Assembly: GCF_014652695.1 (NCBI RefSeq) | Contig: NZ_BMZH01000006.1 | Location: 1 to 64,000 of the forward strand | Source of the DNA: Algimonas arctica | Lineage (GTDB): Bacteria > Pseudomonadota > Alphaproteobacteria > Caulobacterales > Maricaulaceae | DNA length: 64,000 nt | Direction: 5' to 3' | Part shown: piece after piece, positions 11,310-13,965 of the stretch | Layout of the letters: the number at the start of each line of letters is the position of its first letter | How positions within the stretch are numbered: the stretch's first letter is position 1 | Notes under the pieces: model-generated | The model's input: only the letters and a program-made list of their open reading frames with translations | Database searches by the model: none | Told to the model about the DNA's origin: nothing | Made by a program: the position numbers and the translations under genes

Positions 11310-11498
11310 ATGGCTGCCAAGAAAACATTAAAGGTTCGCCAAACAGGCTCGCCGATTCGTCGTAAGCCGGATCAGCGCCAAACCCTGGTTGGTCTTGGAC
11401 TGAATAAAATGGGCCGCGTCCGTGAGCTCGAAGATACGCCGTCTGTGCGCGGCATGATCAAAAAAGTCTCCCACATGGTGGAGATCGTCGAAGAGTAG
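11310..11498 (+). CDS. rpmD: 50S ribosomal protein L30
   Basis: L30 (62 aa) is a small 50S protein. [20 protein letters not shown] and [20 protein letters not shown] match the family at normal length. It lies between rpsE (no gap) and rplO (47-bp gap). Confidence 0.97.
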
Positions 11499-11545: not shown

Positions 11546-12466
11546 ATGCGTTTGAACGAATTATCAGACAATCCGGGCGCAACAAAAGCCCGTAAACGTG
11601 TCGGTCGTGGTATCGGCTCCGGTAAAGGTAAAACCGGCGGTCGTGGTGTCAAAGGTCAGAAATCCCGTTCCGGTGTTTCGATCAATGGCTTTGAGGGCGG
11701 CCAAATGCCGATCCACATGCGCCTGCCGAAACGTGGTTTTAACAAGCCGAACCGTTTGCGTTTTGCTGAGCTGTCCATCGTGAACCTAGAGCGCGCGATC
11801 CAAGCCGGTAAAATCAAAAAAGGCGACAAGCTTGACGCCGAAGCCCTTGTCCGCGCGGGTGTTATCCGCCGCTCACATGATGGTGTTCGCATCATCGGTG
11901 CCGGTGAATTGAGCCAGCCATTGGATCTTCACGTTGCATCCGCGACAAAAGGTGCTCTCGCGATTGTTGAGGGGGCCAAAGGCTCCATCACAATGGTCGA
12001 AGGTAAGCCTGAGCGCGTGATGAAAGACAAAGCAGACGGCACAGAGCCGAAAGCCAAGAAGCCTGCAAAAGCGAAAAAAGCTGATGTTGTGGCTGAAGAT
12101 AAGCCTGCGAAAAAAGCACCGGCTAAAAAGGCCGCTGCCAAAAAAGACGATGCTGACTCTGAGTATCTTGCCAAAACGCAGGATTATGATGCTGATGCGG
12201 ACAATGCCGTTGTGACAAAAATCGAGAAATATCTCGGGGCGTCACTCTCAAACCGCGACGCGAAATATGTGTCGTGTAGTGATGAGACGGAATTGGAAAC
12301 AATCGTCAAAGGCTTCATGAAGAAAAAGTTGGGCATCGATGATAAAGATGCGGCCATGGAGAAGGTGAAAGCCGTCTGTGAAACCATGAAGCCGACACGG
12401 ATGAAAAACCGCGTCACATTCTACTACTTGCTTGCCAAAAACGAAGGCAAGCTAGGCGAATTCTAG
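11546..12466 (+). CDS. rplO: 50S ribosomal protein L15 fused to a DUF2853-like domain
   Basis: The product is 306 aa, about twice the usual L15 length (about 145-165 aa). Residues 1 to about 158 are a full L15: MRLNELSDNPGATKARKRVG, the GGRGVKGQKSRSG loop, GFEGGQMPIHMRLPKRGF, and the end of the L15 fold. Residues about 159-202 are a Lys/Ala/Pro-rich linker. Residues about 203-306 resemble the stand-alone DUF2853 family, with NAVVTKIEKYLGASLSN, SCSDETELETIVKGFMKKKL and NRVTFYYLLAKNEGKL. The reading frame is continuous, with no stop or second strong ribosome site seen at the junction. The ribosomal role of L15 is known; the role of the added domain is unknown. Confidence 0.93.
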   Translation: MRLNELSDNPGATKARKRVGRGIGSGKGKTGGRGVKGQKSRSGVSINGFEGGQMPIHMRLPKRGFNKPNRLRFAELSIVNLERAIQAGKIKKGDKLDAEALVRAGVIRRSHDGVRIIGAGELSQPLDLHVASATKGALAIVEGAKGSITMVEGKPERVMKDKADGTEPKAKKPAKAKKADVVAEDKPAKKAPAKKAAAKKDDADSEYLAKTQDYDADADNAVVTKIEKYLGASLSNRDAKYVSCSDETELETIVKGFMKKKLGIDDKDAAMEKVKAVCETMKPTRMKNRVTFYYLLAKNEGKLGEF

Positions 12467-12482
12467 TTAGCCTACCCCATTT

Positions 12483-12520
12483 GACCCCGGCGCAACTGCG
12501 GCGGGGTCTTTCGCTTTTGG
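12483..12520 (+). terminator. Terminator or attenuator between rplO and secY
   Basis: The stem GACCCCG-CGC / GCG-CGGGGTC (about 11 pairs with one mismatch, 12483-12508) has the loop AACT and is followed by TTTCGCTTTT. The weak, interrupted T tract suggests partial termination, which would lower secY expression relative to ribosomal proteins. Inferred from sequence only. Confidence 0.6.
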
Positions 12521-12597
12521 GACACCGTCCCTAGCTAAGGAAGATATCCGCAACGCCGCGTCATTTCTTCGCGCGTTCGCGAAGAGGACCTTCGATC

Positions 12598-13965
12598 ATG
12601 GTATCAGCCGCAGAACAGCTTGCGCAGAACTTCCGGCCCGGGACCTTTTTTAAGGCCAAGGAGCTGCAGCAGCGCCTTCTCTTTACTCTCGGTATTCTCG
12701 TCATCTATCGCCTTGGAACCTACATCCCGGTTCCGGGTGTCGATTTAGGTATGTTTGAGAGCTTTCTCAGCAGCGGCACATCCGGTGGCTTTGGCGACCG
12801 ATTGAATATGTTCTCTGGCGGTGCCGTAGAACGGATGGCGATTTTCGCGCTTAACGTGATGCCTTACATCTCTGCGTCGATCATTATGACGCTGATGAAG
12901 GGGTCTGTTCCAAGCCTAAAAGAGCTGGACAAAGAGGGCCAGCAAGGCCGCCAACAGATCAACCAATATACGCGCTACCTCACGCTCGTTCTCGCGGCGT
13001 TCCAAGCCTTTGGTGTGGCCAAGCTGATTGAAAAATCCGGTGCGGCGATTGATCCGGGTGTGTTCTTCCAAACTTCGACTGTGATTACATTGGTCGGCGG
13101 GACGATGTTCCTGATGTGGCTTGGTGAACAGATCACGGCGCGGGGTGTCGGTAACGGCGTTTCTTTGATCATCTTCGCGGGTATTGTTGCAGAGCTGCCG
13201 CGCGCGATCTTCCAGGTCTTCTCGCTGAATAGCTCGTCTTCTGTTGTCTCGACGCAACTCCTGATCTTCCTCATCGTGATGTTTATCGCCCTATCGATGC
13301 TGATTGTTTACGTCGAACGCGCGCAACGTCGCCTGTTGGTGCAATATCCAAAGCGTCAAATGGCGCGGGGCCGTCAGTTCGGGGGCGAAAGCTCCTTTAT
13401 GCCGCTTAAGCTCAATACGGCCGGTGTTATCCCACCGATCTTTGCAAGCTCGCTTTTGATCCTGCCAACAACACTCGCGCCTCTTATGCTGGGCCAAGAT
13501 GGTTCCGGCGCGTCTGGCGTGGCGACAACGCTTCTGGCTGCGCTTGGTTATGGTCAGCCGATCTATCTCGCGCTGTATGCCTTGCTGATTGTCTTCTTTT
13601 GTTATTTCTACGTTCCTTACGTTTTCAAGCCAGATGATGTGGCGGATAATTTGCGTAAGAATGGCGGTTTTCTTCCCGGTATTCGTCCGGGCGCGCGGAC
13701 GGCTGATTACCTCAGCTATGTCTTGTCTCGCCTGACGTTTATCGGCGCGTTTTATGTCGCCTTTGTCTGTGTTGTGCCTGAGCTTGTGATTGCGCAGAAT
13801 GACGGAATTCCACCGTCTGTCGCGATGCTGATCGGCGGGATGAGCTTGCTGATTATTGTTTCTGTGACCTTGGATACGGTCGCGCAGATTCAGTCGCACT
13901 TGATCGCGCACCAGTATGAAGGCCTGATCAAGAAATCACGCATGCGCCGTAGAGCTAAAAAGTAA
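12598..13965 (+). CDS. secY: Protein translocase subunit SecY
   Basis: SecY (455 aa) is the channel of the Sec translocon in the inner membrane. It has about ten membrane segments; GTYIPVPGVD after TM1, the plug/TM2 region MFSGGAVERMAIFALNVMPY, and the cytoplasmic loop NLRKNGGFLPGIRPG with the conserved Arg are diagnostic. The C-terminal SRMRRRAKK tail is basic. It is the last spc-type gene here, 21 bp upstream of adk as usual in alphaproteobacteria. Confidence 0.98.
   Translation: MVSAAEQLAQNFRPGTFFKAKELQQRLLFTLGILVIYRLGTYIPVPGVDLGMFESFLSSGTSGGFGDRLNMFSGGAVERMAIFALNVMPYISASIIMTLMKGSVPSLKELDKEGQQGRQQINQYTRYLTLVLAAFQAFGVAKLIEKSGAAIDPGVFFQTSTVITLVGGTMFLMWLGEQITARGVGNGVSLIIFAGIVAELPRAIFQVFSLNSSSSVVSTQLLIFLIVMFIALSMLIVYVERAQRRLLVQYPKRQMARGRQFGGESSFMPLKLNTAGVIPPIFASSLLILPTTLAPLMLGQDGSGASGVATTLLAALGYGQPIYLALYALLIVFFCYFYVPYVFKPDDVADNLRKNGGFLPGIRPGARTADYLSYVLSRLTFIGAFYVAFVCVVPELVIAQNDGIPPSVAMLIGGMSLLIIVSVTLDTVAQIQSHLIAHQYEGLIKKSRMRRRAKK

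Follow-up and report, generated by a model that had tools for sequence, protein, structure and literature searches.

The window analysed here, a 64,000-nt stretch of contig NZ_BMZH01000006.1 of Algimonas arctica, carries an rplO gene flanked by what we take to be its neighbours in a ribosomal operon, rpmD before it and secY after it (Table 1). A single open reading frame of 306 residues contains both a ribosomal protein L15 and a second, C-terminal domain. The L15 part matched the NCBIfam equivalog model rplO_bact (TIGR01071) at residues 2-148 with 140 bits against a cut-off of 77.95, covering model positions 1-143 of 144 as a full-length bacterial L15 does, and Pfam Ribosomal_L27A matched at residues 76-149. 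The C-terminal part scored 104.3 bits against Pfam DUF2853 (PF11015; E 5.8e-30, cut-off 25) over profile positions 1-100 of 101, which places it in this family, and a whole-genome profile search found DUF2853 at the same place in rplO. Taken alone, the domain matched 2pyq_A, the one solved chain that we found for the family by sequence, at E 8e-15, and the match rose to E 1.2e-31 when a profile of 52 DUF2853 sequences served as the query. An earlier note, based on the letters of this DNA, had read the gene as L15 fused to a DUF2853-like domain, and the profile matches bear this out. That note had also placed the added domain on every 50S subunit, which is to be expected given that this is the L15 gene of its ribosomal operon.

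Table 1. Features of the rplO locus, with positions counted in the window.
Feature	Position	Strand	Basis
rpmD (presumed neighbour)	11310..11498		
rplO, L15-linker-DUF2853 fusion, 306 aa	11546..12466	+	open reading frame and profile matches
Ribosomal protein L15 domain, residues 1-148	11546..11989	+	NCBIfam TIGR01071 and Pfam Ribosomal_L27A
Lysine/alanine-rich (K/A) linker, residues 149-205	11990..12160	+	composition; mostly the loosest part of the gene
DUF2853 plug-in domain, residues 206-303	12161..12454	+	Pfam PF11015; 2pyq_A
rplO-secY spacer	12467..12597		
secY (presumed neighbour)	12598..13965		

The stretch between the two domains (residues 150-203) consists of 31% K/R, has a net charge of +7 and is probably flexible, judging by its composition; the DUF2853 domain is near neutral, with a net charge of -1. 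No other open reading frame in the window contains DUF2853. A second copy in the same genome forms the C-terminal end of a membrane coiled-coil protein, and the genome's S2 (310 aa) and L21 (103 aa) both end without such a head. Separately, the rplO-secY spacer folds more stably than its shuffled versions (z -2.42; 2 of 200 as stable) and holds a strong GC hairpin followed by TTTCGCTTTT. This could be a terminator or attenuator within the ribosomal operon; a terminator scan of the spacer found no site on the + strand.

The same fusion was found in relatives. Close L15 matches among named relatives came from Litorimonas, Algimonas, Hellea and Robiginitomaculum, all of which NCBI taxonomy assigns to the Robiginitomaculaceae in the order Maricaulales, and Litorimonas cladophorae, a named isolate, matched the fusion across residues 1-306. 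Our L15 search covered a family set of 137 genomes including the window's own, grouped for searching in a way that may differ from the NCBI family, of which 133 were matched by the query. The L15-DUF2853 fusion was present in 24 genomes from six genera, 23 with DUF2853 alone and one with both a helix-hairpin-helix (HhH) domain and DUF2853. Because it was read at 24 of 50 complete L15 C-termini of the genera with L15 tails and matched in L. cladophorae, the sequences tell us that the fusion is not an assembly artefact of the window's genome. DUF2853 itself was present in 58 of the 137 family genomes versus none of 14 control genomes, and in only 9 of 385 genomes drawn from the class, the window's included; the class-wide matches outside the family lay in open reading frames of lengths 106-157, which fit single-domain proteins.

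Across seven hand-picked pairs, pN/pS ranged from 0.03 to 0.15 for DUF2853, from 0.06 to 0.28 for L15 and from 0.08 to 0.52 for the linker, at dS values of at least 0.85, where synonymous changes are near or past saturation. By this measure the DUF2853 part of the fusion is under purifying selection as strong as that on L15 or stronger. The earlier note had named two separate proteins, from internal initiation or cleavage, as one way in which its reading could fail; free L15 and free DUF2853 would then act apart. Relatives do have standalone DUF2853 genes, and 20 of 23 fusions offer at least one possible in-frame start (ATG, GTG or TTG) between residue 151 and about 60 residues before the end, the window's gene having five. 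The positions of these codons shift, however, so that no start is conserved among the 23 fusions, and three fusions have none in this stretch; we therefore regard two separate proteins as very improbable and rejected a conserved internal start.

DUF2853 was also found on other carriers. S2 ends in this domain in 11 genomes and S16 in one, G131 (L180:857-1747), while a cut open reading frame in G138 has a tail similar to the S16-DUF2853 of G131; the domain further terminates a phasin-like protein and a membrane coiled-coil protein. This survey ruled out a fusion unique to L15: the fusion and the identity of the domain, as read in the earlier note, stand, and what that note had missed is that the tail is not specific to L15. 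The membrane protein of the window's genome (L002:1489-2508, on contig C4) combines a membrane-anchored coiled coil, a long K/A linker and DUF2853, and follows a gene that we presume to be OmpA-like. Its relatives bring together a TM stretch, a coiled coil, often HhH, and DUF2853, and their added HhH matches that of protein-O from the Dinoroseobacter reaction-centre complex. Two further proteins have HhH-type ends. In G004, an acyltransferase-like protein (L291), presumably a wax-ester synthase/acyltransferase, has a C-terminal K/A linker and HhH. The NuoE of the window's own genome (L309, C4:92473-92661), which we take to be the 24 kDa subunit of complex I, has a C-terminal linker followed by an HhH-like stretch that scored 14.5 bits against Pfam HHH_5, below the cut-off.

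A tree of 112 DUF2853 domains over 107 columns, many forks of which are unresolved, united the 33 membrane-type rows in a single clade (support 94/99). Four changes are required for the L15 label on this tree, at least three of them forced. S2 domains are interspersed with those of L15: ten of them cluster with the G004 L15 domain (97/87), one S2 domain lying outside this cluster, and five L15 domains of genus g11 group with the phasin-like type (98/68). Three residues, K87, R89 and Y94, are invariant in the aligned domains. The tree placements suggest repeated movement of the domain from gene to gene, and recombination between K/A-rich linkers may be what moves it. Among 25 short loci scanned, seven have a phasin-like DUF2853 gene directly after rpsP, suggesting that the S16 domain was transferred from this neighbour.

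The fused domains are separate in the tree from a standalone type that resembles 2pyq by alignment (2pyq itself being outside the tree). Of 59 loci examined, 15 (L004:288-2953 and relatives), all from genera g1 or g12, have a standalone DUF2853 gene flanked by ccrM and mutY, and a second standalone type lies directly upstream of nth in all three f5 loci. This company of DNA genes lends weak support to a DNA role, as the ccrM/mutY context occurs in g1 and g12 alone, and it is absent from most standalone loci examined. As proof of a DNA role we rejected these neighbours, since the context is limited to related genera.

We then compared C-termini within the genera that have long L15 tails (g1, g2, g6, g11, g12, g16, g18 and g19; 63 genomes). 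Fifty complete L15 C-termini divided into 23 with DUF2853, 19 with HhH, one with both and seven with neither; six of the seven without a head measure 228-283 aa and carry a long K/A tail, and the seventh, from G086, is short at 185 aa. S2 showed the same alternation, with HhH at 29 of 53 C-termini, DUF2853 at 11 and neither at 13, and nine L15/S2 tail pairings occurred among the 44 genomes in which both were read. These counts drop proteins truncated by a contig end (L15 of G011 and G068, S2 of G088) and omit genomes whose L15 or S2 was not found or fetched, g16 contributing S2 only. In G091 (L212/L252), an L15 of 418 aa carries HhH and DUF2853 in series. In three of the 44 genomes neither L15 nor S2 has a recognised head, two of the three retaining an L15 K/A tail, and a head is therefore dispensable.

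The two kinds of head have no detectable homology by hhalign (probability 0.1 over 1 column), and DUF2853 as a distant HhH was thus rejected at the level of sequence profiles. To place the exchanges we used a tree of L15 and S2 cores with 46 rows, comprising the 44 paired genomes together with the cut G068 and, from genus g7, G023. L15 labels took 16 changes by parsimony (minimum 4; mean of shuffles 21.0, with 1 of 200 shuffles as low), and at least nine changes for DUF2853 and at least six for HhH are forced on well-supported branches; S2 labels took 11 changes (least 2; shuffled mean 18.6). Considered by itself, the DUF2853 label on L15 shows scarcely more clustering than expected by chance, with 14 changes against a shuffled mean of 15.3 and values as low in 155 of 500, which indicates fast turnover and speaks against a simple functional reading.

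Linkers follow a different rule from heads. On L15 they are basic with either head (mean net charge +10.7 for DUF2853, n=23; +11.5 for HhH, n=19), and on S2 they are acidic with either head (mean -7.0; DUF2853 n=10, one of 11 having been left out for a cut start; HhH n=29), with mean lengths of 60-69 residues on the two proteins. Linker charge thus follows the host protein, and the head rather than the linker is therefore the common element; the K/A linker as the generally active part was rejected, as the S2 linker is acidic while its head is the same. The six K/A tails on L15 of relatives have a mean net charge of +24. The window's L15 does not end in a histone-H1-like terminal K/A tail of this kind, its K/A stretch being a linker ahead of DUF2853.

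A complementary pattern emerged for L21, which we surveyed over the same 137 genomes with an L21-HhH query of 224 residues, counting by hand. Within the tail-bearing genera a core row was obtained in 43 of 63 genomes (20 gave none), and in all 43 the match ended at residue 101-116 of 224. Among the other 74 genomes, 72 gave a core row and 70 of these matched to residue 147 or beyond; the two exceptions are explained by a contig end (G033) and a likely frameshift in the tail (G160). Individual proteins agreed: L21 was 103-105 aa in 11 of 11 cases read in the tail-bearing genera, and elsewhere it had an HhH end in 30 loci, which were best matches chosen by search, and a K/A tail in seven. L15 read elsewhere in the family measured 157-179 aa in 16 of 16 cases. 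In genus g7, three of four L21 proteins read without an apparent frameshift have a K/A tail and the fourth (G149) has HhH; in G063 the L21 tail appears broken. Since genera with a tailed L15 are bare on L21, and genera with a bare L15 mostly have HhH or K/A on L21, the 50S tail seems, from these sequences, to have moved between the two proteins. A strict rule of one tail per 50S was rejected, because L3 of G012 (L303) has a C-terminal HhH-like domain beside L15-HhH, the domain scoring 20.9 bits against Pfam HHH_5, below the cut-off of 27. G006, G007 and G016 also gave HhH-search rows where L3 is expected, identified by position alone.

This pattern bears on the possibility that the tails do nothing, and that recombination through low-complexity K/A linkers simply scatters small domains over abundant proteins. 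Such drift would suit the DUF2853 label on L15, which turns over about as fast as shuffled labels, and also the rpsP loci, where a phasin-like DUF2853 gene sits nearby and one rpsP carries the same domain type. Purifying selection and the L15/L21 pattern are nevertheless hard to account for without function, and we consider drift improbable. The many carriers, the alternating tails and the tailed L15 with a bare L21 point to docking or localisation.

Phasins offered a parallel. The phasin-like protein aligned, at a profile probability of 97.2 over 54 columns, with the phasin region of an HhH-ending phasin that belongs to another family of the same order, the HhH-phasin profile having only two near-identical rows; it scored below the Pfam phasin cut-off (19.2 versus 28.8 bits). 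In the window's genome, one phasin-like gene adjoins phaC (199 bits) and has a short K/A end only, and the K/A tail of a second copy is longer. Thirty phasin-like proteins were read across the genera grouped with the window's own: DUF2853 terminates 17 of them and a short K/A end the other 13. For genus g7, where 15 genomes gave a match, all 13 proteins read have K/A tails. In G036 and G040, from another family of the order, the phasins end in HhH, as does L21. One of these two phasins was scanned: it scored 35.7 bits against Pfam Phasin, and the NCBIfam models of PhaH, S2, L21 and NuoE match the HhH end of such a phasin locally, below their full-length cut-offs. Excerpts of a 2025 review (PMC13052382) describe PhaH as binding DNA non-specifically through its HhH domain, PhaF and PhaM as doing so through histone-like domains, and DNA-binding phasin tails as tethering polyhydroxybutyrate granules to the nucleoid. 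With two of the three exchangeable tails being DNA tethers according to these excerpts, DUF2853 would most simply be one as well.

By this analogy, we propose that DUF2853 tethers ribosomes to the nucleoid, probably by way of nucleic acid, and put the probability of this reading at about one half. The domain would serve as a small docking head at the C-terminus, held on an arm 54-80 residues long, one displayed per 50S subunit. Unrelated tails (HhH, DUF2853, H1-like K/A) substitute for each other on L15 of the 50S, and in sister genera it is L21 that bears an HhH or K/A tail; DUF2853 likewise alternates with HhH on S2 of the 30S, and with K/A at the ends of phasin-like proteins. DUF2853 may bind nucleic acid, most likely chromosomal DNA, and so keep the nucleoid joined to, or intermixed with, ribosomes, granules and certain membrane assemblies. 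On ribosomal proteins, HhH and K/A tails would then bind DNA as they do in phasins, and DUF2853 would be functionally equal to both. In its broadest form, which we put forward tentatively and with somewhat more doubt than confidence, an exchangeable head (DUF2853, HhH or H1-like) on L15 or L21, often with a second on S2, would physically tether the ribosomes of this alphaproteobacterial family to the nucleoid; DUF2853 would be a new nucleic-acid-binding domain, and the same toolkit would position granules and membrane complexes. The near-neutral charge of DUF2853 counts against a tether, being unlike that of a classic DNA-binding tail.

The same near-neutral charge would suit a head that docks on protein, with DUF2853 and HhH binding a common protein partner or each other and thereby clustering ribosomes, granules and the membrane protein. 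HhH domains are also able to bind protein or RNA. The membrane protein, which unites TM stretch, coiled coil, often HhH, and a DUF2853 that forms one clade (33 of 112), fits this reading, as do the HhH tails on NuoE and on protein-O of the reaction-centre complex, where DNA has no obvious use; the source on protein-O (PMC12079452) gives the function as unknown. The near-neutral charge and these two HhH carriers keep protein docking alive. It requires, though, that two unrelated domains and a K/A tail share one partner, for which nucleic acid would be the simpler candidate, and we judge it unlikely, if still a serious contender.

A role within translation was nearer to the earlier note, which had suggested assembly, dormancy or stress: the head would bind rRNA, mRNA or ribosomes in 50S assembly, hibernation or polysome packing. 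In its favour, L15, S2 and S16 are all ribosomal carriers of DUF2853. Harder to reconcile with it are the phasin-like and membrane carriers of DUF2853 and the HhH of NuoE, none of these proteins being a translation factor, and the domain is absent or replaced in close relatives. A part in assembly, dormancy or stress is not supported by our survey, and we hold a translation role to be rather improbable.

Collectively, the fusions, the tail exchange, the L15/L21 pattern and the selection on DUF2853 are established at the level of sequence, and a nucleoid tether is our preferred interpretation of them. We know of no function for the DUF2853 family, and this uncharacterised family now gains a testable role; the functional lead that the earlier note had anticipated comes from the exchange of tails. 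L15 is a universal ribosomal protein, and yet its tail has been replaced repeatedly between close species. Ribosomes of Caulobacter are mixed with the nucleoid. A built-in ribosome tether could explain ribosome-nucleoid mixing in these Alphaproteobacteria. For most bacteria, part of a published account (PMC12858079) gives ribosomes as largely excluded from the nucleoid, and for Mycoplasma as mixed with it.

How new this arrangement is can be judged against known systems. HhH tails on S2, L21, NuoE and PhaH are already in named models, and the kind of tail is therefore known; our literature search found nothing on a DUF2853 head, on L15 or S16 as carriers, on tail exchange or on the L15/L21 pattern. 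Standalone DUF2853 proteins such as PDB 2pyq belong to the same domain family and differ in being single-domain. The NCBIfam models PRK12311, PRK12278 and PRK12373, which describe long S2, L21 and NuoE proteins with a C-terminal HhH, share the principle of an extra domain on a ribosomal protein, but here the carrier is L15 and the head is DUF2853. PhaF, PhaM and AlgP, as described in excerpts of the review (PMC13052382), have a K/A-rich basic stretch, and six L15 tails end in this way, whereas the K/A stretch of the window's L15 is a linker to a further domain. The closest counterpart is PhaH of Caulobacter crescentus (Salinas et al. 2023, as cited in those excerpts of PMC13052382), a particle-bound protein with a small C-terminal head, and a phasin-like relative in the window's group has DUF2853 where PhaH has HhH. 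By sequence, L15-linker-DUF2853 has the same layout as nucleoid tethers of the PhaH/PhaF type, namely a particle-bound part, a linker and a C-terminal head; it differs from PhaH in that the head of PhaH is an HhH, unrelated in sequence to DUF2853, and in that the carrier here is the ribosome.
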